DNA from: a virus
Length of the DNA: 42,890 bases
Virus record (IMG/VR): IMGVR_UViG_3300047440_000087
Span: 1 to 42,890 of that record
Direction: 5' to 3' (one strand)
Below are positions 3,856 to 20,146 of this stretch, piece after piece. Made by a program: the position numbers and the translations under genes. Each line of letters starts with the position of its first letter. Within the stretch, counting starts at the first letter, position 1. A model generated the notes under the pieces. The model was not told where the DNA came from, searched no databases, and saw only the letters and a list, made by a program, of their open reading frames with translations.

Positions 3856-3906
3856 CAATCCTCCATCTAAAACTAAAGGACGTGAAAATCATGCCCGTTC
3901 CACTCC

Positions 3907-3933
3907 TTCTATTATACCCCCTGTTTTTGCGCG
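3907..3933 (-). promoter_or_regulatory. Variant of the phage promoter element before the nuclease-RNA polymerase operon
   Basis: On the minus strand this reads CGCG, five bases, ACA, GGGGG, TATAATAG. It differs from the nine canonical copies by one base less between CGCG and ACA and by TAGAA in place of TGAGA. The TATAAT hexamer is perfect. It would drive the two nucleases, the RNA polymerase and the last gene. It could be a host-type promoter with chance similarity to the canonical element, or a weaker member of the family. Confidence 0.45.
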
Positions 3934-3948
3934 GGGTTATGTATAGTT

Positions 3949-4467: not shown

Positions 4468-4502
4468 TGTTCCTCCTATTTTTTTGCCAAGAAAAACACA
4501 CT

Positions 4503-5734: not shown

Positions 5735-5741
5735 TATTCTC

Positions 5742-5915: not shown

Positions 5916-5932
5916 AAACTCTCCTAAAATGG

Positions 5933-5964
5933 AAAAAACTAAACCACTTGTATGTGGTCTAGTT
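5933..5964 (-). terminator. Intrinsic terminator of the 5970-6206 unit
   Basis: An 11-pair stem (one G-U pair) formed by AACTAGACCAC and GTGGTTTAGTT closes a 6-base loop and runs into six T on the minus strand. It stands five bases after the stop of the upstream gene. Unlike the other terminators in this genome, its stem does not use the TATACCC sequence. Confidence 0.85.
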
Positions 5965-5969
5965 CTGAC

Positions 5970-6206
5970 TTACTTCTCGGGGTCGTAGATGTAGGTGGTG
6001 ACGAGGTCGTTCTCGTTGTGGGTGATTTCAATTAGCGGCATACTAATCGGCTTCGTCAAATGCTGGAGGGTGAGGGTGACTTTGTCATTGTGGTGCTTGG
6101 TAGCGAACACAACGTACATGTCTCCTTCAACCTTCACATAGGTACGATTGGGATTAATCTCGGTAGCGAAATCAACGCAACGCAGAAACTTGTCGATGTT
6201 GTACAT
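5970..6206 (-). CDS. 78-residue protein of unknown function in its own transcription unit
   Basis: The product begins MYNIDKFLRCVDFA and is largely beta-strand-like (TYVKVEGDMYVVFATKHH, KVTLTLQHL), with no membrane segment. I chose the ATG at 6206 because AAGGAGAAACC precedes it; a longer reading to 6233 would start inside the promoter element. It forms a complete single-gene unit: promoter element at 6228-6255 and terminator at 5933-5964. Such a compact unit suggests strong, independent expression. No family recognised. Confidence 0.8.
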   Translation of the reverse strand: MYNIDKFLRCVDFATEINPNRTYVKVEGDMYVVFATKHHNDKVTLTLQHLTKPISMPLIEITHNENDLVTTYIYDPEK

Positions 6207-6227
6207 GGTTTCTCCTTGGGTAGTGGG

Positions 6228-6255
6228 TCTCATTATTACCCATGTAAACCATGCG
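6228..6255 (-). promoter_or_regulatory. Phage promoter element, copy A
   Basis: Minus strand: CGCA, six bases, ACA, five bases, AATAATGAGA, followed by the leader CCCACTACCC and the ribosome site of the 78-residue gene. It starts directly after the U-tract of the preceding terminator. The spacing matches the other eight copies exactly. Confidence 0.8.
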
Positions 6256-6284
6256 AAAACTTATACCCTGTGTAGGGTATAAGT
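6256..6284 (-). terminator. Intrinsic terminator, TATACCC-type stem
   Basis: A perfect 11-pair stem, ACTTATACCCT with AGGGTATAAGT and a 4-base loop, ends in TTT(T) that merges into the CGCA of promoter copy A. It terminates the 6293-6571 gene. Confidence 0.85.
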
Positions 6285-6292
6285 CTTTGAAA

Positions 6293-6571
6293 TCAGTCGG
6301 TCTCGATGAGGGGCTTGGTGGGGTCAAACGACCATGGGGTTCCATTGGGCAAGTACGTGACAAGGCGCCCGTGTGACAGCTCGTTCACGGTCCACTCTTC
6401 CTGCTCAGCGACAGCCTTGTTGTATGCATCGATCTCTTTGTTCGTCTCTTTGACGATGTAGATGTATGCACCAACAAAGATTGCGGTGGCAGCAATGGTG
6501 GTACCGTAGAAGATGGTGTCTTCGGGGTTGTCCTTGATCTTGTTCTTGATCTTGGTCCAGGTGTTCTTCAT
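6293..6571 (-). CDS. Small single-pass membrane protein
   Basis: The product is 92 residues: a lysine-rich N-terminus (KIKNKIKDNPEDT), one membrane segment at about 22-40 (IFYGTTIAATAIFVGAYIY), a charged helix and a C-terminal soluble part. The topology is probably N-in, judging by the positive N-terminus. AAGGAACTGAA precedes the ATG. It forms a closed single-gene unit between promoter copy B and the terminator at 6256-6284. It resembles the other small membrane proteins at 15694-18900 in gene design but not in sequence. Function unknown; a role in remodelling the host membrane or excluding other phages is conceivable. Confidence 0.82.
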   Translation of the reverse strand: MKNTWTKIKNKIKDNPEDTIFYGTTIAATAIFVGAYIYIVKETNKEIDAYNKAVAEQEEWTVNELSHGRLVTYLPNGTPWSFDPTKPLIETD

Positions 6572-6600
6572 TTCAGTTCCTTCTGTTCGGGGTGAATGGG

Positions 6601-6628
6601 TCTCATTATTACCCCTGTAAAATACGCG
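6601..6628 (-). promoter_or_regulatory. Phage promoter element, copy B
   Basis: Minus strand: CGCG, six bases, ACA, five bases, AATAATGAGA. It directly follows the terminator of the upstream gene, so terminator and promoter form one compact boundary. The leader GAGACCCATTCACCCC leads to the ribosome site of the 92-residue membrane protein. Confidence 0.82.
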
Positions 6629-6660
6629 AAAACTTATACCCGATGTATATGGGTATAAGT
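6629..6660 (-). terminator. Intrinsic terminator, TATACCC-type stem
   Basis: A ten-pair stem, ACTTATACCC with GGGTATAAGT, a 9-base loop and a TTTT tract that becomes the upstream flank of promoter copy B. It ends the 6669-6887 gene. Confidence 0.82.
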
Positions 6661-6668
6661 CTTGGTGG

Positions 6669-6887
6669 CTACTCTGGGGTGTGAACGGTGACTAGGGCAT
6701 CGTTGGTCAGCGACAGAATGACAGACGGCTTGCTCGAGTCGTTGACATCAACAAGGATGAATTGCGTGGATCGGGTTAGATCGAGTTGCTTGTACTCGCG
6801 AATCCGAAACAGCGTATCTCCAATGCGGATGCAGTCTCTCGGCATGATGCCTGCCACTCTGATGGTGGTCTTACGATAACCTTTCAA
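6669..6887 (-). CDS. 72-residue protein of unknown function in its own transcription unit
   Basis: The product begins MKGYRKTTIRVAG and is mostly beta-strand (DTLFRIREYKQLD, STQFILVDVND, PSVILSLTNDALVTVHT), possibly a small barrel. The TTG at 6887 is the start, with GAAAGGAAG seven bases upstream; the only internal ATG would remove the basic N-terminus. Promoter copy C stands 20 bases upstream and a terminator lies eight bases after the stop, so it is a closed unit. No family recognised; there is no membrane segment. Confidence 0.78.
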   Translation of the reverse strand: MKGYRKTTIRVAGIMPRDCIRIGDTLFRIREYKQLDLTRSTQFILVDVNDSSKPSVILSLTNDALVTVHTPE

Positions 6888-6907
6888 GGGTCTTCCTTTC
6901 GGTAGGG

Positions 6908-6935
6908 TCTCACTATAACCCTTGTTTTACCTGCG
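6908..6935 (-). promoter_or_regulatory. Phage promoter element, copy C
   Basis: Minus strand: CGCA, six bases, ACA, five bases, TATAGTGAGA, followed by the CCCTACC leader and the TTG gene at 6887. Spacing matches the consensus. Confidence 0.8.
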
Positions 6936-6972
6936 AATAGGGGCACCTTTACATTTATTGGCGGTCGTTTAA

Positions 6973-7024
6973 GATATCCCTCCGGCCGACTCTCACAGAG
7001 AGCCCTCGAATGCACTAGGATATC
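6973..7024 (-). other. Structured intergenic segment
   Basis: The roughly 100-base gap 6936-7039 has no gene. Within it GATATCC (6973-6979) pairs with GGATATC (7018-7024), enclosing a small CTCTC/GAGAG hairpin (6990-7002) and a GC-rich flank. It may be the folded 3-prime end of the transcript that carries the 46-residue gene, or a regulatory RNA element just before promoter copy C. No U-tract follows. Confidence 0.4.
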
Positions 7025-7039
7025 CCCCATTCGCTAACC

Positions 7040-7180
7040 TCAGACCAACTCAGCGGTCTTGAAGTACGCCTTCTCCTCGTCGGAGAGGCTCTTCCAGAAC
7101 TCCATCATCTCGCTGGTGCCGACAGGCCTCTCAGCGGTGCTGAAGAAGTCCTTGAGCGCCTTGACGGTGTTCTCAGCCAA
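7040..7180 (-). CDS. 46-residue conserved phage protein
   Basis: The TTG at 7180 opens 46 codons beginning MAENTVKALKDFFSTAERPV and containing the helical pattern SEMMEFWKSLSDEEKAYF. This pattern is familiar from many actinobacteriophages, where it is uncharacterised. GAGAGGGG, shared with the stop of the upstream gene, serves as ribosome site about nine bases before the TTG; a GTG three codons earlier lies too close to it. It is coupled to the zinc-ribbon gene upstream. Probably soluble and helical. Confidence 0.78.
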   Translation of the reverse strand: MAENTVKALKDFFSTAERPVGTSEMMEFWKSLSDEEKAYFKTAELV

Positions 7181-7195
7181 TATTGTCACCCCCTC

Positions 7196-7342
7196 TCAGT
7201 CTCGTGGTGGTTGTGGCGGAAGGTACTGCTTGAGAAGTCGGCCACAACGAAGACACCAGATAACATAGTCATCATGGTCCTCCTTATGACCAAACCAACT
7301 GCAATAACGAATCTTGATTCGCATCCACAGAGGTTCTCTCAT
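7196..7342 (-). CDS. Small DUF1660-like zinc-binding protein
   Basis: An ATG at 7342 overlaps the stop of the 161-residue gene (ATGA) and opens 48 codons. RYCSWFGHK, a His/Asp stretch and WCLRCGRLL give the C-x4-GHK-...-C-x2-CG pattern of the DUF1660 prophage family, probably one zinc site (Cys14, His19, Cys30, Cys33). The tail is proline-rich. Its function is not known; zinc proteins of this size often bind nucleic acid or a host protein. An ATG in another frame at the same place gives a 29-codon reading without motif, which I rejected. Confidence 0.78.
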   Translation of the reverse strand: MREPLWMRIKIRYCSWFGHKEDHDDYVIWCLRCGRLLKQYLPPQPPRD

Positions 7343-7824
7343 GAGCGCTCGAAAGTGCGATGGAACGTGCGGTCCGCATAGCTCGAGAAGTGACCCTCAC
7401 GACCAGTCACAACCCAAGATCCCACGAACGCACGACTATGCATCTGGTTCTTGGCGTTGTTGTTCGGCACATCGATGAACGGAACATCCAACTTGGTCGA
7501 GGAAACAGTCCCTCCACACCACTTCGCCACCTGCTCCATGTTGGTCTCATCGACCTTGATGGCCTGGACTTCGAAGACCTTCCGGGTGTAGGTCTCCACG
7601 ACAAGGGACTTCTCTTCGACAGGCATGACGTCCTCCAGATTGAAATTCACGGTTAGACCGTATTCGGGATTACAGTTTACGTTGTGCCACTTGATTGCGC
7701 CTTCAAGTGATCGGAATGTCAGAACTTTCAATTGAGCTACACCGAGCTCTGACATCCCAAACTCTGTACTATGAACATACCCATTCACAGTCTTGACGAT
7801 CGTGCATCGCAGGTTTGAACTCAT
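7339..7824 (-). CDS. 161-residue protein of unknown function
   Basis: The first half (RCTIVKTVNGYVHS, LKVLTFRSLEGAIKW) looks like a small beta-alpha domain. The second half (YTRKVFEVQAIKVDETNMEQVAKWCGG ... WVVTGREGHFSSYADRTFHRTFE) matches a common phage domain that begins with FxVxAxxxxxxNxxxxAxWCGG and ends with GdWvv...g.f..y....F...F. Many phages carry that domain without known function. ATG at 7824 overlaps the previous stop (ATGA). It may be a fusion of two small phage domains. Confidence 0.75.
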   Translation of the reverse strand: MSSNLRCTIVKTVNGYVHSTEFGMSELGVAQLKVLTFRSLEGAIKWHNVNCNPEYGLTVNFNLEDVMPVEEKSLVVETYTRKVFEVQAIKVDETNMEQVAKWCGGTVSSTKLDVPFIDVPNNNAKNQMHSRAFVGSWVVTGREGHFSSYADRTFHRTFERS

Positions 7825-8015
7825 CCGGCATCAGGAATATTCATGAGACGATCGATCGTGAGCAGGACTTCTGCTGCCGCATCACCGGTGAACATCTTGA
7901 TACCTCCACCAGTGACATGAGGAATGTTCTTCGCATCAATGGCCTCGACCGCCGCTACTGTGTCCGCGAAACCATCCGTCTCGATCTCGAAAACAATCAA
8001 AAGCTTAGTTGTCAT
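7821..8015 (-). CDS. 64-residue protein of unknown function
   Basis: The product begins MTTKLLIVFEIETDGFADT and continues with AVEAIDAKNIPHVTGGGIKMFTG and a helical end; it looks like a small alpha/beta domain. The ATG at 8015 follows AGGGGACG and lies inside the end of the SSB-like gene (11-base overlap). A longer reading to 8051 has no ribosome site. It is coupled at both ends, so it belongs to the replication operon. No family recognised. Confidence 0.72.
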   Translation of the reverse strand: MTTKLLIVFEIETDGFADTVAAVEAIDAKNIPHVTGGGIKMFTGDAAAEVLLTIDRLMNIPDAG

Positions 8016-8490
8016 CTCGTCCCCTAGGAGTAGCATCCTCAAGATCCGCATACTTCAGCTCGAGCGGATCCTCAATGATTGTGATGAACAGGCTCTGCAG
8101 ATATGCCTTGATGCCCGACTTGTCCCCGATTTCCCACTCGTATGGGTTGAGGATAAGGTCCACCTTCCGGATATCAGCCCAATCCAGAATCTCGACCTCC
8201 CTCTCAGTAAGAGGGGTCCTTCCACGAGACGTGATCATGACGATACGAGGGGGTCGGCCACGGAAGTTCACCGAGACCTGGATGTACGGCTGGTCTGCCT
8301 CGTCCTCTTCGCGAGCCTTCAGGAACTTCACATTCCATCCGTCATCGAGCATCTGCTTGGCGACCTCGTCGGTCAGGATAACCGCGAAATTACGATCACC
8401 CTCACGGTTGAACTTGCCCTCCTTCCCCGCAAAGTTGCGGAAGAGGATCCGTGCATCCTCAATGACGACGGTGTTGTCGTGCCTAGACAT
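8005..8490 (-). CDS. Putative single-stranded DNA-binding protein
   Basis: The product is 161 residues, beginning MSRHDNTVVIEDARILFRNFAG. The pattern NREGDRNFAVILTDEVA, then PYIQVSVNFRGRPPRIVMIT and a closing ILNPYEWEIGDKSGIKAYLQSL strand-helix stretch, resembles the OB-fold SSB-like proteins of Gram-positive phages. Ribosome site GGAGAG precedes the ATG at 8490; the longer frame runs into the previous gene. It stands between small genes directly downstream of the polymerase fusion, the expected place for an SSB. The acidic tail typical of SSB is short here (DLEDATPRGRDDN). The family call is by pattern, not by search. Confidence 0.65.
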   Translation of the reverse strand: MSRHDNTVVIEDARILFRNFAGKEGKFNREGDRNFAVILTDEVAKQMLDDGWNVKFLKAREEDEADQPYIQVSVNFRGRPPRIVMITSRGRTPLTEREVEILDWADIRKVDLILNPYEWEIGDKSGIKAYLQSLFITIIEDPLELKYADLEDATPRGRDDN

Positions 8491-8719
8491 CTGAATCCTC
8501 TCCAAGACCCTGAGTTTGTTCGACGGTCTCGCCCCGCCATTCACCTCGCATAACCACGGCTGTGTTCCAGACCTCAAGACATGCGAGGAGATACCAGGCA
8601 AGAATATAGTCTGGGGTTCCAGACTTGTTCTCTTGTGAAAATCGGTTCAACAAAAGAGTGAGATCTACCTCAAGATCATGCGGTGCCTCGAAATCACCAT
8701 CTGAATCAGGCACACTCAT
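8483..8719 (-). CDS. 78-residue conserved phage protein
   Basis: The product begins MSVPDSDGDFEAPHDLEVDL and has the signature ENKSGTPDYILAWYLLACLEVWNTAVVMRGEW, a pattern (NTPD-ILA-YL-CL-AF-x-AV-R-W) shared by small proteins of many actinobacteriophages. Function unknown. ATG at 8719 overlaps the previous stop (ATGA), and its end overlaps the SSB-like start by eight bases, so it belongs to one coupled replication operon. Confidence 0.78.
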   Translation of the reverse strand: MSVPDSDGDFEAPHDLEVDLTLLLNRFSQENKSGTPDYILAWYLLACLEVWNTAVVMRGEWRGETVEQTQGLGEDSDV

Positions 8720-8976
8720 TCGTCTTCTCCTGTAATAGGGCTTCCGTAGTGAACACTCATACCCATTCGGGTTCCTCGGACTGCAGTGACCAAGTCAACA
8801 ATCTGTGAAGCATCATCACTGCTGACATCATCGAACGACAGCGTTAGGTAGTATCGAATGGGCTTGTATTCGTTGAGATCTGCGGGCACAGTCTCATCCT
8901 TATGACAGCCTACCTCCCGACACTTCTGGCTACCACATCGAAACCCTGGATGCTCACGTGTTTCACAATCACACAT
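8716..8976 (-). CDS. 86-residue cysteine-rich protein
   Basis: The product begins MCDCETREHPGFRCGSQKCREVGCHKDE: six cysteines and two histidines in the first 27 residues suggest one or two zinc sites. The rest is a small alpha/beta domain (IRYYLTLSFDDVSSDDASQIVDLVT). I chose ATG at 8976 over the TTG just before it; GAGGAG lies seven bases upstream. It overlaps the end of the polymerase fusion by eight bases. A DNA- or protein-binding accessory to replication is possible but not shown. Confidence 0.75.
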   Translation of the reverse strand: MCDCETREHPGFRCGSQKCREVGCHKDETVPADLNEYKPIRYYLTLSFDDVSSDDASQIVDLVTAVRGTRMGMSVHYGSPITGEDE

Positions 8977-11900
8977 CAACTAACTCCTCAATAGATCCGA
9001 ACTTACTGATTGTCTTCATTGCTTCATCTGCAATGTGCTCGAAATAACTCATATCAATTTCCAACTCATCGCCAAGGGCCTTAGCTGCATCTGCTTCGAG
9101 CCACAGATATCCCTTAGTTCCTGTAACGGCGTAATACTTATCGTCCTTGACCCGATATAGCATCGCTCCGTGGTTGTTCTCTTTCACAGGCACAAACCGA
9201 CCAGTACGGCCAACAAATCGCATACGACCATCAGACAGGACCATCGGAGTATCGTAGTCAAAGTCAAGGTACATAGCTCCTTGTGTGACTTGCTTGGTCT
9301 CACACAAGTCATCGAACGTAACCTCTTCGTTGCTGAATAAGGTCTTGTAGACGTACGGATGCTGGAACTGTGCACCAACCGCAGTCCACTTATCTCCTTG
9401 TCGAGCAATATAGACCGCATCATTCACAAGACAGAACTTGTCGTATGTGGCCTCATGCTCGAATTCGTATCCGTACTGCCGACCGAAAGCAATAATACCC
9501 TCAATCAAGTCTGGCGTAGCATTGGCAATCTTGATCGAGTCGGTCTTAATATGGATCACATTCGTCCACTGCTGAACGTATTCCTGCAAATCGATCATGA
9601 ACAAGGCACCGCGCTTAGCTACGATGTTGTCCTTGTTACGAATATCCCGAAATGCATTGTCGAACTTAGCCGAGGTCAGTCCATATACGATATTGATTAC
9701 GATTTTGAGAGCGTATGCAAGACTCTCAGCGCGTACATCAATCCCGTCATCGCTACCCAGAAACTTGGCGAGACGACCGTCAAAATACGATCGGGCAGCC
9801 TTGTAGTCCTTACGCTTAATCGCCATTCGCGCTTCTTTAAGGGCTGAGAATCTCTGAGTGTACTCTGTTCCAAAGAGGTTAAGCTGTTCAATGGATGTCG
9901 GATGCATAGACGCCACGTCCAAAAGCGCCACGTTAGTGTAGAGGCCAGGCTCCGCATATACATACCCACCTTCGCCAGGAGAATAACCACGATAACTACT
10001 AACGCCACTATCGTAGACGTATCCATCGAACTCCTTACTTAGGTCGGTATAGACAAATTGCTTCTGCGGGTTCCGATCATTCCCGAATATGATCTTGGCT
10101 GTGTGCTTCTGCGTGGTGTCATTGACAGTCAAACCAGAAAGTTCTGCCAGAATTTCCCTCGCGGTAAAATCTGACTTTCGAGAATTGAAAACCGCCTCAG
10201 TTGCCATGACATCGTTGGCACAGTAATCCACGACGTTCGGCCAGTTTTCTTCCGGAACGGGCTCATCCCAAGGGTAATCAAGCTCCTTGTGAGGGATGCC
10301 AAGGTCGATCTGGAACTTCTTGAGGCCCTGCTTCTTCGAGGAGAAGTCCCAAATGTCCGTATATGAGAGGTTGTAAGCCTCTCCGAACATGGCCCCGACA
10401 TTGTTCGATATGATCTTCTGGCTCAACTTGTACAAAGCCTCATTGTCATAACCGAGATACCGAGCGTAGAGGATATGGTTGTCATACCGTCGGTTGTTGA
10501 AACCGATCAACTTCATATGGAACAACTGCTCGACATCGGTGGGCCCTGGATTGATCATACGAACTACGGGCTTGTCTCCCTCATATTTCCAGCAGACAAC
10601 GAACAGATTCGGGTAGACTTCCACATCGAAGAAGACCAGAGGGCCTGTCTCTTCAGTAATATCCGTCTTAGCCGTCTCTGACTTCCACTTCATCTGCTGG
10701 ACGATCTTCAAAGACACCAGCGCCTGGTTCGTACTGTTGTTTGCGAACGCAACAATACGAGGACGCATGTCCGTTATGTCGTATACGATACCGCTAGCAT
10801 AGGCATCCTCAAGGATCTTGTGGATGAAATCGATCGAGGGCTTCGTTCCGGGATGGATTCCCTTCTGCAAATTCCTCTCAATAAGGTCCCGTAGCCCTTT
10901 CTCGCTCTGGATAGTTGTTGCTTTCAGCATCTTTCGCTCCTTCAGAGGCAGACCGTTCTTGAGAGTGGCAATCGAAACCGCATTGCACTTAGTGAGCCGT
11001 CTCCGAAGGGCGCCATTACCGAGCAAAGTCTTGATCTCGATACCATTCGAGTACTCGGTTGATAGTTCGGTGACATTTCCATCGTAGATATAGTGCAGAT
11101 GTACGCCAGATCCTCCTTGGCTTAGCTCTGCGTATGTGGGCGGCCAGGCACTAGCAGCCGACAGGTTCATCTCGAGCGACTTCTTGCCCTCAGCGTCCTT
11201 CAGGTCGAAGTCAATCACAATATGGTTGTCAGGAACCTGGACATAATGCAGTTGTGAAGTGTCCAACTCAGACAAAGTGGTCTTGACATTGTCCCACCTG
11301 TGAGCCGGCCTTCCCTCCTTAGTATACTGAGCAGGCCAATCCTCACCCTCACGATCGAAGAGGGACACGGTCTCATCCATCACAAGTGAAAACGTTTTGT
11401 CCTGCTTTGACTCAGTTTTGAACAAGTTGGCGTTGAAACCTGAGTAATATGCCCTCACAATGTGGTCCCCAACTGTCTTGCGATCCTTGAATTCATTGAA
11501 ATAGTTCTTCAATTCCTCTCGGATCTTGTACTGAGGTAGGACTCGATCAATACCTGTCTCTGAGCAGTACTCTTTGTACAAGGAATACGCCTGCTTCAGA
11601 GTGGTTCCGTCCTGGCTACTGAAGACATCGTAGTTAGCCTCGATGAAGTTGAAGAATATGTCAGTCTTGAACATCATCGTTAGGGGACGATACCCATTGT
11701 AGTAGTTCTTGCCCATCTCCTGGTAAACTGACAGGCATCGGTGAGCGATAGCACCTAACTCAAAGTCGATTTGTCCCAATAGTGTCATGTAATGGTTGAC
11801 TGGGATCGACACTCCGGTCGGATGGACGTCAATCAGACGCCGAATAATGCCCGAATTGGAGTCAGAGATACGCACAGGCTGATTTGTACCCATGAATAAG

Positions 11901-12706: not shown

Positions 12707-12720
12707 ATCCTCACCTCCTG

Positions 12721-13257
12721 TCAGTACGTGCTAATGATGTATGCATTCATCTGGTACCAGATTTCGACACGTCGTTGGTCTTCTTTCGGGTCGGAGAGAG
12801 GAAACAAACCCCCATCTCCAGAATAATCGTAGTTCCTCCAAATAAGAGTCTCCAAGGTCTGATCAATTACCTTGATTGTCGTAGGCTTTGCGTTATAACG
12901 ATCATCTGAGATATGATCGAGACCCAGGTTGGCCATAAGATGCCAAAACCATGTCCGTACTTCTCCGTCTGCTTGAAACGTGAGTCGCTTGGACAAGGCT
13001 ATGATCATTTCCAACACTGATACAGGGAAGCTATGCCACTCCGGAGTTAGCCTTCGCTTCGTATCATAGGAAAATTCATACCTGAGTTCTCGACCATCCT
13101 CAACTCGGTTGTCATCATTTGCAATGAGCCAAACGAACTCCTTCTGGTGTAGTTGTCTCAGTAGAGACCAGTGGGTGTACCTTGGATCGGATACTTCAGG
13201 GTCTTCGGTTTGGGCTACTAGCCACTCGAAGTAGGAGTTCTCAAGAGTTACATCCAT
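12721..13257 (-). CDS. 178-residue phage protein of unknown function
   Basis: The product begins MDVTLENSYFEWLVAQTED and is rich in Trp and Tyr (THWSLLRQLHQKEFVWLIAND, WHSFPVSVLEMIIALSKRL, TWFWHLMANLGL). Recurring small aromatic-rich helices suggest an all-alpha soluble protein. I have seen similar sequences next to phage replication genes but know no function. ATG at 13257 overlaps the stop of the membrane protein gene (TGATG). It lies 14 bases before the polymerase fusion, so it may be a replication accessory protein. Confidence 0.75.
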   Translation of the reverse strand: MDVTLENSYFEWLVAQTEDPEVSDPRYTHWSLLRQLHQKEFVWLIANDDNRVEDGRELRYEFSYDTKRRLTPEWHSFPVSVLEMIIALSKRLTFQADGEVRTWFWHLMANLGLDHISDDRYNAKPTTIKVIDQTLETLIWRNYDYSGDGGLFPLSDPKEDQRRVEIWYQMNAYIISTY

Positions 13258-13967
13258 CAGTCATCGTCGATCCTGAATTTCCGAGGTCGTCTCCGATCGG
13301 AAGAATGCTTCATAGATCCCAGGACTGTCTCCTCATAACTCTCCCTTTCCCTGATGATCTCGAACCCCATGGCTGCCCACTCGTTCACGACGTAGACAAT
13401 GTTCGGATCATTGGAGCCGTTCCCGAACTGATCCAACGCTTCCAGCCCAATCGTCAGATCAATATCGTCGATGGGTGTGTCCCGTTCGTCAACGAGGACA
13501 TCATCCTTCTCATAATATGTGAGCGTCCGCTGGTCGTAGTCCTTCGGGTTCTCCTTGAACTCATCAAAGGAGACTACGAACGCTTTCTTGCCTGCGCGCT
13601 TAGGAATCTCACGGCGATAATCGAAAACAGAATGACGAGCAGAGTCATCATCAAGTTCTTCGTCTTCTTCGACGGCTTCTTCTTCCGCTGACGGGTCACT
13701 CGGGAACGCGACATATCGTTCTTCCTCCAGAATCTCAGAATTAATTTGAGGGGCAACCTTCTCAAGAACATCAGAAGGAGTTGCATAGTCTTCCTTCTTT
13801 GTCAGCCTTGTGTAGTACTCCTTTGACTTGATCAGTTCAGCCTTCAGACGGACTTCGTACTCATCATCGAGGCGCTTCTGCGTGAAATAAGCCCCGACAA
13901 AGATGCCGGAGCCCATTGCGACCATAGAAGTACCTGCGACGGTAAGATATAGAACCTTCCCGTGCAC
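13257..13967 (-). CDS. Single-pass membrane protein with long cytoplasmic domain
   Basis: The product is 236 residues. An N-terminal membrane segment (about 5-27, VLYLTVAGTSMVAMGSGIFVG) is followed by a charged coiled stretch, a strongly acidic linker (EEEAVEEDEELDDDS, about 94-108) and a soluble domain ending in basic RRRPRKFRIDDD. GTG at 13967 is the start, with AGGAGGAATT in front. It belongs to a set of membrane proteins (13257-18900) that also occurs in some Firmicutes phages. A role in tethering replication to the membrane would fit its place just before the polymerase, but this is inference. Confidence 0.78.
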   Translation of the reverse strand: MHGKVLYLTVAGTSMVAMGSGIFVGAYFTQKRLDDEYEVRLKAELIKSKEYYTRLTKKEDYATPSDVLEKVAPQINSEILEEERYVAFPSDPSAEEEAVEEDEELDDDSARHSVFDYRREIPKRAGKKAFVVSFDEFKENPKDYDQRTLTYYEKDDVLVDERDTPIDDIDLTIGLEALDQFGNGSNDPNIVYVVNEWAAMGFEIIRERESYEETVLGSMKHSSDRRRPRKFRIDDD

Positions 13968-13975
13968 AATTCCTC

Positions 13976-14869
13976 CTAGATCTTGTCGTAGATAAGACCA
14001 TCAACATTGAAGTCCAGCAAGATCGAACCCTCTCGACCATTCACGAAATCCCTTGCACGAGGACGATCCCCGTTGAAGATCCCGAAATCGATGAAGTTGT
14101 CGCTATCCTTGCTGAGGACCCATCCCACCACAGCTCCAGCCTTAGACCTATCCATGCTCAGCATGTCGTAGACCTCGTTCAGGAACACGTGTCCACGGGA
14201 GTGTAGGAGATCATTGGCATAATTCTGCTGGCATCGTAGGAACAGATTGTTATACTCGGGCTCACGCTGCCAGGCTGAGCACAACTCGTCGAAGAACCGC
14301 GCATAGATTGAAAAGCTATTGGGATCCATGTGCTTGACGGTTACCTCCTTACCGTCTTCGTTCTTCTTCGCAACCGTCTCTGTGGAATATCGGAACTTCC
14401 GGTCCGTTTCCTCCCCGAACTCATCCACGACACGTTCCCGATACTCTCGGAATCCCTTGTCGAGGGCAGCATAAGCAGCCGTGACTGCCGCATACCGACG
14501 GTTCAGGATGACGTGACTACCCGTGAGTGCAGCGATGGAGGCTGACCCGACCAGAATTGCAGGACCGTAAGCCTTAGCAATATCCACAACCGTGCGGGTG
14601 TAGATGATCGCCATGTCCTTCTGGTAATCATTGGCGCTGTAGACGTCCGGACCAACTCGAAGAGCCTCCTTGGCCTTGAGTGAGTCCTGCTCGTTCTTCT
14701 CGAGAATATCCTCAAGCTTCAGAGTTGCCCGAGATGCCAGAACTGCAGTGGAAACGACGCCAACCACCCCTCCTGCGAAGAGAACGGTTGGCGAAACGTT
14801 CTGGGCCTTAAGAAGCTGACGGCCGAATCTGGACGTTATTGCTGTCGGTACTAGTTTGGTGAGATTCAT
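13976..14869 (-). CDS. DUF6353-like membrane protein 1
   Basis: The product is 297 residues. Two N-terminal hydrophobic helices (VSPTVLFAGGVVGVVSTAVLAS at about 26-47 and a second at about 100-120, AYGPAILVGSASIAALTG) frame a charged helix with LKLEDIL. A long soluble part (ALDKGFREYRERVVDEFGEE ...) ends in DFNVDGLIYDKI. The plan and key words (SPT-hydrophobic, RAT/KAS..., AYGP..., RYAA..AAY..L...F.EYR) are shared with the second copy at 17161. AGGAGAGGG precedes the ATG. Function unknown; membrane location is secure. Confidence 0.8.
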   Translation of the reverse strand: MNLTKLVPTAITSRFGRQLLKAQNVSPTVLFAGGVVGVVSTAVLASRATLKLEDILEKNEQDSLKAKEALRVGPDVYSANDYQKDMAIIYTRTVVDIAKAYGPAILVGSASIAALTGSHVILNRRYAAVTAAYAALDKGFREYRERVVDEFGEETDRKFRYSTETVAKKNEDGKEVTVKHMDPNSFSIYARFFDELCSAWQREPEYNNLFLRCQQNYANDLLHSRGHVFLNEVYDMLSMDRSKAGAVVGWVLSKDSDNFIDFGIFNGDRPRARDFVNGREGSILLDFNVDGLIYDKI

Positions 14870-15008
14870 TCCCTCTCCTAAAAGTGCTCTTGTAATATAA
14901 AACCATCATGGCTTCGATTTGCTTGTCGGACATTCTGTTGACCTCTAGCGCAAACTCCCTTCCCGGGTACATCCGTTTCAAGAGAGTGCGCTCATACTGC
15001 AGGCCCAT
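14808..15008 (-). CDS. 66-residue protein of unknown function
   Basis: The product begins MGLQYERTLLKRMYPGREF and continues ALEVNRMSDKQIEAMMVLYYKS, a helical, basic pattern seen in small proteins next to DUF6353 genes. The ATG at 15008 shares a base with the previous stop (TGATG). Its last 62 bases overlap the start of the DUF6353-like gene, which is long for an overlap and makes the C-terminal tail (HQTSTDSNNVQIRPSAS) less certain. Possibly an adaptor for the membrane proteins around it. Confidence 0.65.
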   Translation of the reverse strand: MGLQYERTLLKRMYPGREFALEVNRMSDKQIEAMMVLYYKSTFRRGNESHQTSTDSNNVQIRPSAS

Positions 15009-15640
15009 CAGTCGAGAGGCTCTGGGCGTGGAAGATCCAGCAAGTATCCGTTCCTGACTCGAGTCACACCTGCTCCTCTGATATCGGACCATCCCCACTT
15101 GTCGTCGGTGTAGTCTCCGGTGACTCCGACAAGCTCGTATAGATCAGCGACGCTAGCTGTGTTATATCGAGAGACCAAGTCGAAGAGCCGATCAATAACC
15201 TCTTCCGCCTCAATACGCGTGGCAAGAATGATCTCGTCGAAATTATGAGTTGCACGTGCCCGTCGACTGGGGAAGTCACGATCTCGGTTGCGACCACCTC
15301 GGTCTCGATCTGAAGAGAATCGATTGTATTGGACATGCCCGCTTCCTCCAGGACGCACTCCCGTACGACGACTCGTGGATCGAGCCTCTCCGAACAACAT
15401 TCGCTCGACACCCTGACTGGTAATATCAGCGATGGTGTCTTTCATTGCGGGGAGAAGGACTTCGAACGTCACATACTGCCCCACACTCTTCATGTCGCTC
15501 CCGATGAATGTCTCCTGAATACGCTTTCCAAGGGGCTTCTTGCGACGAACCACAGCGCCCTCGACAACCCGCTCGATCTTCTTGGGCTCGTCGGGCTCTG
15601 TCTCAGGAACCTTGTGCCTGTTGCTGGGGTAATTGTCCAT
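15008..15640 (-). CDS. Conserved phage protein with basic middle region
   Basis: The product is 210 residues. NYPSNRHKVPE...EPKKIERVVEGAVVRRKKPLGKRIQETFIGSDMKSVGQYVTFEVLLPAMKDTI is the pattern of a family I associate with gut Firmicutes phages that also carry DUF6353 genes. The middle is Arg/Gly/Asp-rich and disordered-looking (residues about 90-130, SSDRDRGGRNRDRD). The C-terminal domain (IEAEEVIDRLFDLVSRYNTASVADLYELVG) looks helical. AGAAGG precedes the ATG. No membrane segment; the basic RG-rich part may bind nucleic acid. Confidence 0.78.
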   Translation of the reverse strand: MDNYPSNRHKVPETEPDEPKKIERVVEGAVVRRKKPLGKRIQETFIGSDMKSVGQYVTFEVLLPAMKDTIADITSQGVERMLFGEARSTSRRTGVRPGGSGHVQYNRFSSDRDRGGRNRDRDFPSRRARATHNFDEIILATRIEAEEVIDRLFDLVSRYNTASVADLYELVGVTGDYTDDKWGWSDIRGAGVTRVRNGYLLDLPRPEPLD

Positions 15641-15654
15641 AATATCCTTCTGAG

Positions 15655-15683
15655 AAAAAACCTATACCCTGGGTAGGGTATAG
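15655..15683 (-). terminator. Intrinsic terminator, TATACCC-type stem
   Basis: A nine-pair stem, CTATACCCT with AGGGTATAG, and a 4-base loop, followed by six T on the minus strand. It ends the 15694-15948 unit and lies 15 bases before the next ATG. Confidence 0.88.
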
Positions 15684-15693
15684 ATCTGTGGGA

Positions 15694-15948
15694 CTAGTGC
15701 ACGACGATGAGGGGGTTTTCCTTCTTGCCTTCGAAGATGTCGAAGATGGTGTCAACGTACTTGTCGGTGGACTTCTGAGTCATGTCTGCAACCAGCAGGC
15801 CTGTAGCGGTCGATCCAATCCAGACTTCAGCTTCTTGGAGCTTGCTCTTGGGTTGGACGTTATTCTTCAGGACACTGGCAACAGTGAATGAGGTCGAAAA
15901 TCCGACGATAGTACTGACAACCAACTTGGTGGTCTCTCGGGTAGACAT
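15694..15948 (-). CDS. Small two-helix membrane protein
   Basis: The product is 84 residues, with two hydrophobic segments at about 8-26 (KLVVSTIVGFSTSFTVASVL) and 42-56 (VWIGSTATGLLVADM), separated by a short basic loop, then a polar tail with FEGKKENPLIVVH. AAAGGAAAG precedes the ATG. It is a closed unit between promoter copy D and the terminator at 15655-15683. It might be holin-like by size, but it lies far from the lysin genes, so I would not call it a holin. Confidence 0.8.
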   Translation of the reverse strand: MSTRETTKLVVSTIVGFSTSFTVASVLKNNVQPKSKLQEAEVWIGSTATGLLVADMTQKSTDKYVDTIFDIFEGKKENPLIVVH

Positions 15949-15979
15949 GGGGTCTTTCCTTTCGTGGGGGGTGAATAGG

Positions 15980-16007
15980 TCTCACTATTACCCATGTAAA
16001 TTACGCG
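15980..16007 (-). promoter_or_regulatory. Phage promoter element, copy D, overlapping a stop codon
   Basis: Minus strand: CGCG, six bases, ACA, five bases, AATAGTGAGA. The upstream gene ends inside it: its TAA stop (16001-16003) is part of the N6 stretch. No terminator precedes it, so read-through from the upstream operon is expected. Confidence 0.8.
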
Positions 16008-16480
16008 ACCTCACCCTTCTTCTGGTAAGCCTCGAGCAACTCCTCACGAGTCATCTGAGTAGGATCCTTGATCGCAGGGGCCTCGTCAGAATCTGCAACA
16101 GACCGAGCAACCTCCTGCGAGAGGGAAGCAGGGACGACACCGGAAATAAACTCCACCGCAGCCGAGTTGACCGTAGCCAGTTCAATGAACAGCTCAGAAT
16201 ATGCCTCCATCTGCGAGAACTCATCACGAAGTTCCTGGGTCTTGATGAAGCGGCGACCGTCCTCAGACTTCACACCATACGAAGCCAGGATGATCCTCTT
16301 GAAATGCTCGATGATCTCGTGGTTGTCACCCGAATCGATGATCGCCTGCAGGGATTCAGCGAGACCTCCCTTGGTGCCAGCCTCCAACTCCACCAATTCA
16401 GCCTTGGTGAGGTTGAAGTAGAAGTCCTCCTGGACATCCTTGCCGTTGTAATCGGTGTAACGGATCGTCTTCTTAAGCAT
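16001..16480 (-). CDS. Conserved phage protein, tail-chaperone-like family
   Basis: The product is 159 residues, beginning MLKKTIRYTDYNGKDVQEDF. YFNLTKAELVELEAGTKGGL, IIDSGDNHEIIEHFKRIILASYG, SEDGRRFIKT and FSQMEAYSELFIELAT follow the pattern of a widespread phage family, sometimes annotated as tail assembly chaperone. Here it lies in the membrane-protein region, and a better chaperone candidate exists at 28070, so the role is unclear. ATG at 16480 follows GAGGAAC and overlaps the previous gene by eight bases. The C-terminal helix DPTQMTREELLEAYQKKGE resembles short protein-binding tails. Confidence 0.72.
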   Translation of the reverse strand: MLKKTIRYTDYNGKDVQEDFYFNLTKAELVELEAGTKGGLAESLQAIIDSGDNHEIIEHFKRIILASYGVKSEDGRRFIKTQELRDEFSQMEAYSELFIELATVNSAAVEFISGVVPASLSQEVARSVADSDEAPAIKDPTQMTREELLEAYQKKGEVA

Positions 16481-16835
16481 GAGTTCCTCGCTTGTATTCG
16501 TCAGGGGTGACATAGCCTGCAACGGTAGTGTCCATCTCATCAAGCAACGCGGCCTTGAGGAGGACTAGATAATTGATATGATCTGTGATCTTCTCATTCC
16601 AGATCATCAAACTGTAGCTGTACGCATTCGGGACCATGTCGTAAATCGACACGGTATGCTTTGCCATCATTCCAGCAATAGCCTGAGCAACAGTGATACC
16701 TTCAAGTGCTCCCGCCACCTTGAAGTTGTGAAGCTTGTCCTCAGCAGTCGAGTACTCAATACCCTTGGCTGCGAGAGTGTCTGCACACAGAGCAAACTGC
16801 TCTCGCATAGCGTCTTCAAATCGATCTTGTCGCAT
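16473..16835 (-). CDS. DUF1599-like (nucleotide modification associated) protein
   Basis: The product is 120 residues. FEDAMREQFALCADTLAAKGIEYST, a KLHNFK motif, MMAKHTVSIYDM and WNEKITDHINYLVLLKAAL match the DUF1599/Nmad1 helical family that is common in phages. Members are thought to act near nucleotide metabolism or DNA modification, possibly with a MazG-like fold; the exact reaction is not known. AGGAGAGA precedes the ATG. It starts right after a terminator, so an unseen promoter or read-through feeds it. Confidence 0.8.
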   Translation of the reverse strand: MRQDRFEDAMREQFALCADTLAAKGIEYSTAEDKLHNFKVAGALEGITVAQAIAGMMAKHTVSIYDMVPNAYSYSLMIWNEKITDHINYLVLLKAALLDEMDTTVAGYVTPDEYKRGTHA

Positions 16836-16847
16836 TTCTCTCCTAAG

Positions 16848-16876
16848 AAAAAACCTATACCCGGTGTGGGTATAGG
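16848..16876 (-). terminator. Intrinsic terminator, TATACCC-type stem
   Basis: A nine-pair stem, CCTATACCC with GGGTATAGG, a 5-base loop and six T on the minus strand. It ends the 16887-17105 gene. Confidence 0.88.
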
Positions 16877-16886
16877 AGTTGGGGGA

Positions 16887-17105
16887 TTACTCTGAGGGGG
16901 TAACGGGCTCGGGGTCGTCAGCAACAACCTCGGTCCAACCGTCCTCGACCTCCTCCAGGTTATCAAGCTTCTTCACGACGAATCCGGCAACGATCGCGGC
17001 GACTGCGGTTGCAGCGGCGAAAGTGACGAACGTCTTCGTGGGGAAGCCCTTCTTCTTGGTGGTGGTCTCGGGCAGGTCGGTAACGACGGTGATGGGCTCG
17101 GACAT
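16887..17105 (-). CDS. Small single-pass membrane protein
   Basis: The product is 72 residues: a polar N-terminus, a basic KKKGFPTK patch, an alanine-rich membrane helix at about 27-45 (TFVTFAAATAVAAIVAGFVV) and an acidic tail (EEVEDGWTEVVADDPEP). The basic patch before the helix suggests N-in topology with the acidic tail outside. AAGGAAC precedes the ATG. It is a closed unit between promoter copy E and the terminator at 16848-16876. Function unknown. Confidence 0.8.
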   Translation of the reverse strand: MSEPITVVTDLPETTTKKKGFPTKTFVTFAAATAVAAIVAGFVVKKLDNLEEVEDGWTEVVADDPEPVTPSE

Positions 17106-17130
17106 GATTGTTCCTTCTGTAGGGGTGATC

Positions 17131-17158
17131 TCTCACTATAGGGTGTGTTTTCTGTGCG
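17131..17158 (-). promoter_or_regulatory. Phage promoter element, copy E
   Basis: Minus strand: CGCA, six bases, ACA, five bases, TATAGTGAGA. It begins three bases after the TAA stop of the upstream DUF6353-like gene, with no terminator between. Confidence 0.8.
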
Positions 17159-17160
17159 AA

Positions 17161-17928
17161 TTAGCGGAGGCGATGGTAGTCGCGGATAGGGTTGATCACG
17201 TAGTCCAGGGAAATGCAGGGTCGTCCGTCATCAGACAAGACCGTTGAGAACTTGATGTCAAGCAACTCGTCTGCGTTCCAACCCATCTCGGTAGAATATG
17301 GAGTGGAAGGAAGCCCGATCTTGGAGTAAAACTCGCTGAGAGTTGCATACAGATCATGAATGATGTCATGGTTAATATCATTCTGAGCACTGCGGATCTT
17401 CTCGACTGTGCTTGTGAAATATCGACCGGTGATTGAGTCGTAGCAGAGAACCTCTCCGGCACCAGTGACAATAACCTCACGACTAGTGACTGGATTTGCA
17501 TTGACCCGGTCTTGTGCAATATCATCACGAACACGCTGCTCACGGTTCGCACCGATGTGCTCCTGGACCTTGTCCTTGTATTCCTCAAAGGCCTTCTCGG
17601 TCAGAGAATATGCAGCGGCCAGAGCTGCCGTCCGACGGGATCCGATCCGGTTCGCTCCGATGATGCAGGCGATCGTAAGAGTTCCAACAGCGACCGGAGG
17701 GATGAACTCCTTCCAGACAAGCTTGATCTTGGTCTTGTCATCAAACTCAAAATCTGGGTCTTTGATGAGATGCTCTGCTGTTTCAAACTCAACAATCTTG
17801 TACGCCTTGATAGAAGCCTTACCAGTCAAGAACGCAGTGACGACAGTACCGGTGACCCCGATCGTAGTAAGGATCGTAGGCGAATTGTCAGCGATGAGCT
17901 TAGCTGCCTTCGCGAGAAGATGGTTCAT
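17161..17928 (-). CDS. DUF6353-like membrane protein 2
   Basis: The product is 255 residues. Two hydrophobic segments (about 15-33, PTILTTIGVTGTVVTAFLTG, and about 73-92, FIPPVAVGTLTIACIIGANRI), the words KASIKAYKI and RTAALAAAYSLTEKAFEEYKDKV, and a beta-rich C-terminal domain ending SLDYVINPI match the first copy at 13976 in plan. GGAGGAAAT precedes the ATG. The second copy is shorter and has diverged well, so duplication was not recent. It follows the terminator of the 17979 unit. Confidence 0.8.
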   Translation of the reverse strand: MNHLLAKAAKLIADNSPTILTTIGVTGTVVTAFLTGKASIKAYKIVEFETAEHLIKDPDFEFDDKTKIKLVWKEFIPPVAVGTLTIACIIGANRIGSRRTAALAAAYSLTEKAFEEYKDKVQEHIGANREQRVRDDIAQDRVNANPVTSREVIVTGAGEVLCYDSITGRYFTSTVEKIRSAQNDINHDIIHDLYATLSEFYSKIGLPSTPYSTEMGWNADELLDIKFSTVLSDDGRPCISLDYVINPIRDYHRLR

Positions 17929-17943
17929 AGATTTCCTCCTGAT

Positions 17944-17973
17944 AAAACTTATACCCTGGGTTAGGGTATAAGT
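17944..17973 (-). terminator. Intrinsic terminator, TATACCC-type stem
   Basis: An 11-pair stem, ACTTATACCCT with AGGGTATAAGT, a 5-base loop and TTTT on the minus strand. It ends the 17979-18206 gene and closely matches the terminator at 6256-6284. Confidence 0.88.
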
Positions 17974-17978
17974 GTGGA

Positions 17979-18206
17979 CTACTTGATCTTGGTCTTGGCG
18001 GTGTGAACGGCAACGTCCTTGACAGCGCCGCCAAGAAGTCCGACGAGGAGGACAGCACCAACGCTGACAGCAATGTTCTGAATCTGGTCCTTAGCGATCT
18101 TGTTGATCTCTTCAGGAGTTACATTCGGAACAGCGGTCTGCGAGGTGGCAGTCGATCCTTCGGTCTTCTTGACGACCTGTACCTGGATAGCGTGCTTCTT
18201 AAACAT
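17979..18206 (-). CDS. Small C-terminally anchored membrane protein
   Basis: The product is 75 residues, beginning MFKKHAIQVQVVKKTEGST. A polar, Thr-rich N-terminal half and the helix PEEINKIAKDQIQ lead to one membrane helix at about 46-63 (IAVSVGAVLLVGLLGGAV), then a short basic end (HTAKTKIK). I chose ATG at 18206, with AAGGAATT in front; the longer reading starts inside the noncoding RNA region. It is a closed unit between promoter copy F and the terminator at 17944. Confidence 0.82.
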   Translation of the reverse strand: MFKKHAIQVQVVKKTEGSTATSQTAVPNVTPEEINKIAKDQIQNIAVSVGAVLLVGLLGGAVKDVAVHTAKTKIK

Positions 18207-18235
18207 GGCAATTCCTTCTGTGGATGTGGGTAGGG

Positions 18236-18263
18236 TCTCACTATAAGCCATGTTCTGCACGCG
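18236..18263 (-). promoter_or_regulatory. Phage promoter element, copy F
   Basis: Minus strand: CGCG, six bases, ACA, five bases, TATAGTGAGA, then the leader CCCTACCCACATCC and the 75-residue membrane gene. It follows the terminator-like hairpin of the C-loop RNA by nine bases. Confidence 0.82.
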
Positions 18264-18272
18264 ACAGAGAAA

Positions 18273-18344
18273 CCTATAACCCATGAACTCGGGGGGGAGC
18301 GTTATGGGTTATAGGCCTGAGGAAGGACGGGGGGTACTTCTCTC
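18273..18344 (-). ncRNA. 6C-like small RNA with two C-loop hairpins
   Basis: On the minus strand, downstream of promoter copy G, two hairpins follow each other. Hairpin 1 (18319-18344) pairs GAAG-T-AC with GT-C-CTTC, extendable by three outer pairs past a bulged A; a run of six C (18329-18334) forms its loop apart from one C that closes the stem. Hairpin 2 (18273-18315) has a 12-pair stem, CCTATAACCCAT with ATGGGTTATAGG, an imperfect inner stem and a loop of seven C (18291-18297), then TTT. Two hairpins, each with about six or more C in the loop, is the defining layout of actinobacterial 6C RNA. No start codon with a ribosome site lies inside. 6C RNAs are reported to pair with G-rich ribosome sites. 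The match is by architecture; I cannot run the covariance model. Confidence 0.7.
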
Positions 18345-18368
18345 ATTATAAGACGTGTTTTCTACGCG
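18341..18368 (-). promoter_or_regulatory. Phage promoter element, copy G, before the C-loop RNA
   Basis: Minus strand: CGCG, six bases, ACA, five bases, TATAATGAGA. The six-base core is a perfect TATAAT. No gene follows for about 135 bases; the first structure is the C-loop hairpin, so this copy should drive a noncoding RNA. Confidence 0.82.
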
Positions 18369-18371
18369 AAA

Positions 18372-18480
18372 AAATATAAGAGAAGTCTAGGGTTCATATG
18401 CCAACGAAACATATGATTTAGCAGCTTTGCTTCTGCACCAGATAGGTTGGTCTTTCACCAACACATTCGTGTCTTATCTT
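18372..18480 (-). ncRNA. Structured RNA candidate with four hairpins
   Basis: Between promoter copies H and G lie about 110 bases with no usable reading frame. On the minus strand four hairpins follow: ACAC/GTGT with a 4-base loop (18461-18472), GTTGGT/ACCAAC with a 5-base loop (18446-18462, sharing two bases with the first), GCAG/CTGC (18421-18436) and CATATG/CATATG with a 9-base loop (18395-18415). It ends in an A/T-rich stretch that runs into copy G. The density of perfect stems argues for a functional RNA. It does not fold as a tRNA. Confidence 0.55.
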
Positions 18481-18482
18481 CT

Positions 18483-18510
18483 TCTCATTATAGGGCATGT
18501 TTTTTACGCG
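18483..18510 (-). promoter_or_regulatory. Phage promoter element, copy H, before a noncoding unit
   Basis: Minus strand: CGCG, six bases, ACA, five bases, TATAATGAGA, again with a perfect TATAAT. The sequence after it holds no gene until 18206, so it drives the four-hairpin RNA, possibly continuing into the C-loop RNA. Confidence 0.82.
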
Positions 18511-18548
18511 ACTGATCAAAGTTGCAAAATTCATAGCACTTGCAAACG

Positions 18549-18590
18549 TTAGAGGGCGTGTAGAATTGTTAGTTCTAACACGCCCTCTAA
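18549..18590 (-). terminator. Long hairpin after the 18619-18900 gene
   Basis: TTAGAGGGCGTG pairs with CACGCCCTCTAA, and TAGAA with TTCTA after one bulged A: about 17 pairs around a 7-base loop. It follows the stop of the small membrane gene by 28 bases. No U-tract follows (CGTTTGC), so it may be a processing or stabilising hairpin rather than a classical terminator. Confidence 0.75.
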
Positions 18591-18618
18591 GTCTGATACC
18601 AGGTGTGAAACGGATCGT

Positions 18619-18900
18619 TTACCGGAGCTTCGACACGAACGACATCGCTTTGCTAGTGATGACATTCATTCTTTCGAATTCCAGGATCAGGACGATTCCG
18701 AAGATATTCCCGACGATCAAAGCAAGTGTGTCTGGGTTCACGTTTGAAGGCTTTTCAGCTACCTTCATGGCGTGAAGCTTACACAGTTGATCGATCATCG
18801 TGGCGTACTCGTCGGTCTCGGCGGTGAATCCTTTCATCTCAGATAGAATATCTTCAATGGCAGAGTCAATGCCAGTTGGTGTCTGGGTCTTACGGAACAC
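18619..18900 (-). CDS. Small C-terminally anchored membrane protein, conserved in actinophages
   Basis: The product is 93 residues. A helical N-terminal part (IDSAIEDILSEMKGFTAETDEYATMIDQLCKLHAMK) is followed by one membrane helix at about 58-75 (TLALIVGNIFGIVLILEFE) and the words ERMNVITSKAMSFVSK. This combination, a coiled N-terminus plus an NVITSKAL-like end, is frequent in actinobacteriophages without known function. GTG at 18900 follows GGAGATCT. It is the first gene after the tail operon and has promoter copy I, which lies inside the end of the tail gene. Confidence 0.83.
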   Translation of the reverse strand: MFRKTQTPTGIDSAIEDILSEMKGFTAETDEYATMIDQLCKLHAMKVAEKPSNVNPDTLALIVGNIFGIVLILEFERMNVITSKAMSFVSKLR

Positions 18901-18919
18901 AGATCTCCTTTCGTAGTGG

Positions 18920-18947
18920 TCTCACTATAGCCGTTGTAGGCCACGCG
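18920..18947 (-). promoter_or_regulatory. Phage promoter element, copy I, embedded in the tail gene end
   Basis: Minus strand: CGCG, six bases, ACA, five bases, TATAGTGAGA. The last codons and TAG stop of the ReqiPepy6 Gp37-like gene lie within it. The element keeps exact spacing even while coding, which argues for selection on the DNA sequence itself. Confidence 0.78.
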
Positions 18948-20145: not shown

Positions 20146-20146
20146 A

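Follow-up and report, generated by a model that had tools for sequence, protein, structure and literature searches.

A rigid 28-bp element before small genes and non-coding RNAs of phages, the probable promoter of a single-chain two-barrel RNA polymerase

The viral DNA analyzed here, the window, is the stretch of 42,890 nucleotides (nt) of IMG/VR record IMGVR_UViG_3300047440_000087, and coordinates are window positions. We deal with a repeated 28-bp element in it and with the RNA polymerase (RNAP) encoded by the same DNA. A pattern scan of the window with CGCR-N6-ACA-N5-WATARTGAGA gave exactly nine matches, without a mismatch and only on the minus (coding) strand (Table 1); these are the nine copies of fixed spacing that an earlier note, made from the sequence alone, had located on this strand. 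Even with up to three mismatches, 100 dinucleotide-preserving shuffles yielded 0.75 matches on average and never more than 3. Seven copies lie 19-31 nt before the start codon of a short open reading frame (ORF) of 72-93 amino acids (aa), and those at 18341 and 18483 lead non-coding units, so that the placement before a short gene or a non-coding unit described in the note is borne out, as is the overlap of two copies, 15980 and 18920, with the ends of coding regions (ORFs 16001-16543 and 18925-20229). The ORF lists begin genes 5970-6233 and 17979-18284 too early, since an ATG inside TAATAATGAGA or an in-frame start upstream extends the calls into the element; the likely starts are 6206 and 18206. 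A tenth, variant copy, with the CGC-ACA spacing one base shorter than in the other nine, is the counterpart of a site kept at the same position in relatives.

Table 1. Features of the window, counterparts of its structured RNA at other loci (L numbers) and lineage-specific versions of the element
Feature	Sequence	Position	Strand	Remarks
Element 1	CGCATGGTTTACATGGGTAATAATGAGA	6228..6255	-	exact match; putative driver of ORF 5970-6206 (78 aa)
Element 2	CGCGTATTTTACAGGGGTAATAATGAGA	6601..6628	-	exact match; putative driver of ORF 6293-6571 (92 aa)
Element 3	CGCAGGTAAAACAAGGGTTATAGTGAGA	6908..6935	-	exact match; putative driver of ORF 6669-6887 (72 aa, TTG start)
Element 4	CGCGTAATTTACATGGGTAATAGTGAGA	15980..16007	-	exact match; on stop codon of ORF 16001-16543; putative driver of ORF 15694-15948 (84 aa)
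Element 5	CGCACAGAAAACACACCCTATAGTGAGA	17131..17158	-	exact match; putative driver of ORF 16887-17105 (72 aa)
Element 6	CGCGTGCAGAACATGGCTTATAGTGAGA	18236..18263	-	exact match; putative driver of ORF 17979-18206 (75 aa)
Element 7	CGCGTAGAAAACACGTCTTATAATGAGA	18341..18368	-	exact match; putative driver of short hairpin-ended non-coding unit
Element 8	CGCGTAAAAAACATGCCCTATAATGAGA	18483..18510	-	exact match; putative driver of structured non-coding RNA
Element 9	CGCGTGGCCTACAACGGCTATAGTGAGA	18920..18947	-	exact match; overlaps end of ORF 18925-20229; putative driver of ORF 18619-18900 (93 aa, phrog_5818)
Element 10, variant	CGCGCAAAAACAGGGGGTATAATAGAAGG	3905..3933	-	about 0.9 kb upstream of RNAP gene; chance 0.02
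Proposed reader, predicted single-chain two-barrel (QDE-1/YonO-like) RNAP, 909 aa		292..3021	-	phrog_4291, E=0; ADFDGD
79-aa companion (phrog_4303)		56..295	-	directly downstream of RNAP; homologues in nearly every relative tested, including Lactococcus phages
Non-coding RNA		18368..18486	-	closing helix GAGAAG:CUUCUC, then T-run; minimum free energy z = -2.74
Short non-coding unit	CCTATAACCCAT...ATGGGTTATAGG	18264..18344	-	ends in hairpin of the sequences given, plus T-rich stretch
Terminator-like hairpin and T-run		6629..6660	-	9-bp stem; abuts element 2
Terminator-like hairpin and T-run		6256..6284	-	10-bp stem; abuts element 1
Terminator-like hairpin		16854..16876	-	after ORF 16887-17105
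Structured-RNA counterpart, L254		11594-11686
Structured-RNA counterpart, L263		11537-11645
Structured-RNA counterpart, L281		1321-1446
Structured-RNA counterpart, L318		9527-9652
Structured-RNA counterpart, L313		11387-11475
Structured-RNA counterpart, L315		8475-8563
AddiRose version	CGCA..CA..TATAATAGA
oengus version	CGCGAAAAA..CA..CTTTATGGAA			core CGCG..CTTTATGGAA
CHPC971 version	CACA..TTTTACA..CTATAGTAGA			core CACA..TATAGTAGA
P078 version	TTTAagTTTTACATACCCTATAATGA			core TTTA..ACA..TATAATGA

The 909-residue protein encoded near the left end of the window matches phrog_4291 from end to end (E=0). It contains ADFDGD at residues 503-508, of which DFDGD is invariant in 30 homologues, in agreement with the DxDGD catalytic motif of single-chain two-barrel RNAPs, and it has helix-turn-helix (HTH)-like segments near residues 79-140 and 874-904. 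A fold search was needed because a PDB sequence search with the RNAP profile returned HTH-like and repeat proteins only. Foldseek on the predicted model found QDE-1 (7y7r) with probability 1.00, together with many beta-prime subunits, and a local match to the non-virion RNAP (nvRNAP) of AR9 (probability 1.00, root-mean-square deviation 3.9 over 149 columns). Sequence motif and model together identify the protein as a predicted single-chain two-barrel RNAP, very distant from YonO, to which BLASTP aligned it with an E of 0.034 and only within residues 434-515. Its homologues in 250 phage records are labelled 'HTH DNA-binding protein', 'RNA-dependent RNA polymerase' or 'hypothetical'. Apart from this RNAP and a primase-polymerase nothing polymerase-like, and no T7-like polymerase, turned up among the window proteins, no dedicated search having been made for the latter.

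The element is not confined to this phage, as the earlier note had supposed: it recurs in many RNAP-bearing phages and in bacterial genome loci. Scanning IMG/VR with the motif gave at least 119 stretches, versus 14 with the reversed pattern. Matches are carried by 30 of the 32 records picked for a relative of the 909-residue protein, nearly all on the coding strand, and a full-length RNAP gene (phrog_4291) is encoded by 41 of the 50 large contigs picked by motif alone. Eight of the other nine are cut before the RNAP gene and belong to the same phage family, with head, tail and replication genes in common with the window (G071 with a weak, partial phrog match); the ninth (G073) is unrelated. 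None of the 14 reversed-motif contigs has a full-length RNAP gene. Among 23 isolates with the RNAP gene, 19 hold 4-15 standard copies each, the remaining four (Curtobacterium, Faecalibacterium and Lactococcus phages) have lineage-specific versions instead, and in all 23 the non-coding strand is free of copies. A GTDB scan with the RNAP alignment added 139 relatives, mainly on Firmicutes contigs. At 40 of 70 bacterial-genome RNAP loci (≥10 kb, mostly Firmicutes) at least three forward sites are stronger than any reverse site, the opposite being found at none of the 70. Since this forward/reverse control leaves some coding-strand effect, the position of a site 550-1250 bp upstream of the RNAP start was also tested, the cut-off being the 99th percentile of same-length windows inside the RNAP gene (1% expected). 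Of 72 viral-contig loci 56%, and of 75 genome loci 89%, have a site above the cut-off, at median distances of 907 bp and 951 bp, respectively. In the Arthrobacter, Rhodococcus and Streptomyces phage literature searched, the coverage of which is incomplete, no description of the element was found; nor was a promoter for this RNAP clade in the likewise incompletely covered literature.

A matrix built from 176 sites reads T-CGCA-(A/T-rich 6)-ACA-n-G-S-C-Y-TATAAT-GAGA-CCC. In the Firmicutes (prophage) form, CGCGAAAAAAACATnCCCTTTTATGAAGAGA, the hexamer is TTTTAT, which is no sigma-A -10 box. The four isolates without standard copies have 10-15 copies each of their own version (Table 1), a few low-scoring members of which may be chance matches. 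Sites are more alike within genomes than between them, in both the core and the spacers, and none of 300 permutations reached this difference; a single trans-acting reader in each phage, co-evolving with the whole set of sites, would be expected to produce such likeness, to which shared ancestry adds. With higher thresholds the native spacing gave 161 matches in phages, versus a mean of 3.1 for shifted spacings; at low threshold this control is uninformative because the shifted matrices re-score the same sites. In Lactococcus phage CHPC971 (MK779875.1), near 25746 and 25889, near-identical copies of the element plus a tiny gene stand in tandem, which suggests a recent duplication of whole promoter-gene units.

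The units behind the element are small. A plausible start codon follows within 90 nt at 210 of 259 refined sites, at a median of 26 nt after the hexamer (41% for random points), and the first genes have a median length of 79 aa. Across 221 elements of 23 genomes, a strong hydrophobic segment resembling a single transmembrane helix is present in 55% of the element-led first genes, versus 16-18% of other genes. As a side observation, these first genes would form a family of small membrane proteins. Terminator-like hairpins stand upstream of 24% of sites, as against 2%. Sites concentrate in two regions, one spanning 40-70% of the genome and the other close to the RNAP operon at its right end, and avoid the structural operon; the layout in oengus differs solely because its record starts elsewhere. 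The non-coding units include, by ARAGORN, a tRNA-Ala (Pepy6) and a tRNA-like gene (oengus, anticodon not resolved). RNAs like that at 18368-18486 stand behind the element in Arthrobacter, Gordonia and Rhodococcus phages; in phages of these three genera they measure 90-125 nt, with a GACAC-GAAT-GTGT-like hairpin and a helix closing 5' on 3' end. On the window, Rfam gave one sub-threshold match, which lies elsewhere, and none at the structured RNA, which looks like an undescribed family of phage RNAs. RNAalifold on eight of the non-coding RNAs supported only one small hairpin, because two RNA subtypes were mixed.

These units also bear on the transcription start. Several element-led transcripts would end in CCTTCTC or CTCTC and a T-run, complementary to the GAGAAGG right after the hexamer. 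A stem of 7 bp or more that begins between -2 and +2 was observed 17 times, versus a mean of 3.9 and a maximum of 9 when downstream stretches were swapped between genomes, and the tRNA 5' ends given by ARAGORN lie 2 nt (oengus) and 9 nt (Pepy6) after the hexamer. The 3'-end pairing with GAGA and the tRNA 5' ends probably place the start of the RNA no more than about 2 nt from the hexamer, roughly on the base that follows it, as in T7-type promoters; the start 4-8 bases after TATAAT envisaged in the earlier note is probably wrong.

Taking into account that: (i) the motif is rigid and conserved; (ii) it lies on one strand, before transcription-unit-like stretches; and (iii) it co-occurs and drifts with the RNAP gene, all of which are expected of a phage-RNAP promoter, we propose, with considerable confidence, that the phage's own single-chain two-barrel RNAP uses the element as its promoter. 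In the model, the RNAP would read the (T)CGCR box, the A/T-rich 6-mer, the ACA five bases before the A/T hexamer, which is TATAAT in the actinophages and TTTTAT in the prophages of Firmicutes, and the initial GAGA, its built-in HTH segments perhaps replacing a sigma factor. It would then melt the hexamer and begin the RNA at or near the next base. Each copy would start a short unit closed by its own hairpin terminator and holding one small protein, a tRNA or a structured non-coding RNA, while the variant copy upstream of the exonuclease-RNAP operon would make RNAP expression self-reinforcing.

Several observations weigh against this proposal. The AlphaFold model of the RNAP is only moderate (predicted local distance difference test 73.8, predicted template modelling score 0.50). 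The RNAP-upstream copy is below threshold in 44% of the viral-contig loci, and at prophage loci the native spacing (56 matches) is equalled by one spacing variant, which picks up many of these sites via GAAGAGA. No match was found in SPbeta, which encodes the very distantly related YonO, within the 35 kb examined around yonO, a span that takes in the region before yonK with the mapped start; that start is a B. subtilis coordinate located only approximately on the SPBc2 record. The actinophage hexamer TATAAT resembles a host -10 box. Finally, the helicase, the primase-polymerase, the exonuclease and phrog_4303 co-occur with the element as well as the RNAP does. Since other core genes co-occur equally well, a required phage cofactor may take part, and the comparisons fit an RNAP acting alone as they fit one acting with such a cofactor; the phrog_4303 protein is a possible partner. 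The proteins common even to Lactococcus phages are the exonuclease, the helicase, the primase-polymerase, a DUF6353 protein, a tail assembly chaperone and the 79-aa RNAP neighbour; the family-wide conserved gene set holds no annotated transcription factor or repressor. The window itself encodes two paralogous DUF6353 (phrog_2152) proteins, at 13976-14869 and 17161-17928 (minus strand).

The resemblance of TATAAT to a -10 box speaks for a reading by the host RNAP with its housekeeping sigma factor, in which TATAAT and GAGA would be the -10 element and discriminator and a phage activator at CGCR...ACA would replace the -35 contact. In the actinophages the hexamer is indeed a perfect -10, GAGA is discriminator-like, and no other phage polymerase would be required. 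Nevertheless, the sigma-70 scan of 3000-20000 found no TTGACA/-10 pair at any of the nine copies, as the note had stated for a TTGACA box 17 bases upstream, and no excess of promoter-like sites over shuffles; no copy has a -35 hexamer at 16-18 nt, by which a sigma-70 geometry was ruled out, and the activator site would fall inside the spacer. Moreover, the hexamer becomes TTTTAT, CTTTAT or TATTAT in whole lineages, while hosts are expected to keep their usual sigma specificity. Sigma-70 transcripts start about 7 nt after the hexamer, rather than the 1-2 nt suggested here by pairing and tRNA ends. We regard this explanation as improbable.

Still less credible is that the element is not a promoter but a phage repressor site (stoperator) or a translation-associated repeat. 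The stoperators of Cluster A/CA phages likewise recur, for the most part between genes and in a single orientation (PMC13313380), but the present element is twice as long, keeps a constant short distance to the genes, tRNAs and non-coding RNAs that follow it, and is preceded by terminators; the units behind it have 3' ends pairing with GAGA, and the conserved gene set lacks an annotated repressor. Of the two candidate readers named in the earlier note, comparative evidence favours the phage RNAP; host polymerase redirected by the WhiB-family protein that the window does encode (38182-38469, minus strand) can be virtually discarded, since WhiB occurs in one of 40 element-bearing genomes (the window, and none of 39 relatives), the element is present in Firmicutes prophages and Lactococcus phages, and the hexamer drifts from TATAAT in whole lineages.

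The RNAP operon has an element of its own, and if the phage RNAP reads it, the question arises of how the first RNAP is made. Virion packaging would be a plausible answer. At its N-terminus the RNAP carries LxHYGxxRxSGRYPWGSG, which is similar to the leaders, LxHYGVKGMKWGVR, of proteins from the 5' (structural) region of the same genomes (Pepy6, Secretariat, Rima and others; seven in ReqiPepy6), and which may be a virion-targeting signal. The ReqiPepy6 record describes the RNAP homologue as 'similar to Lactococcus phage 1706_gp75, structural protein', the current record of 1706 gp75 reading RNA-dependent RNA polymerase. The leader similarity and the ReqiPepy6 text speak for virion cargo, which would serve early transcription, over a newly made enzyme. 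Carried further, the RNAP would be packaged and injected with the DNA, and ordinary siphophages of Actinobacteria and Firmicutes would start transcription without host polymerase, by means of the sigma-like HTH modules of the RNAP and a promoter of very long standing in both phyla; we put this forward tentatively, at somewhat under even chances.

A conserved promoter with lineage versions would give this RNAP family a function and make its regulon predictable by a simple scan. The natural specificity variants would allow the study of sigma-less promoter recognition by a single-chain relative of cellular RNAP, and could supply orthogonal expression pairs for Streptomyces, Arthrobacter, Gordonia and Lactococcus.

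Promoters of the T7 type are rigid, of 20-30 bp, with a TATA-like melting box at the start, a GGGAGA/GAGA-like initial sequence and many copies on one strand. The present element shares the rigidity, the TATA-like box beside the putative start, the GAGA-like initial sequence and the one-strand copies, whereas the remaining sequence differs and T7 RNAP is an unrelated, right-hand polymerase. The crAss-like phage phi14:2 is cited in two reports as having a two-barrel single-chain virion RNAP, with a cargo model for early transcription (PMC10770324, PMC10172136); that enzyme is much larger than ours and the likeness lies in the two-barrel single chain, packaging being only plausible in the present case. 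YonO of SPbeta transcribes late genes from one start, and the YonO paper left its promoter to be determined (PMC5467207). Both enzymes are single-chain two-barrel phage RNAPs with a detectable alignment of the catalytic region, but beyond that region their similarity is practically nil, the element was not found in the 35 kb around yonO, and, unlike the late-gene role of YonO, it avoids the structural operon. The nearest precedent is the Thermus phage P23-45, in which gp96, a virion RNAP (vRNAP), and gp64, an nvRNAP, have promoter motifs of their own ahead of genes of the early region; among its relatives, the motif is confined to those with the matching RNAP (PMC10770324). In both systems single-chain two-barrel phage RNAPs are accompanied by a motif that tracks the RNAP gene; the RNAPs belong to different families, and the present system is distinguished by one 28-bp tripartite element, terminal HTH segments and a motif common to phages of two bacterial phyla.

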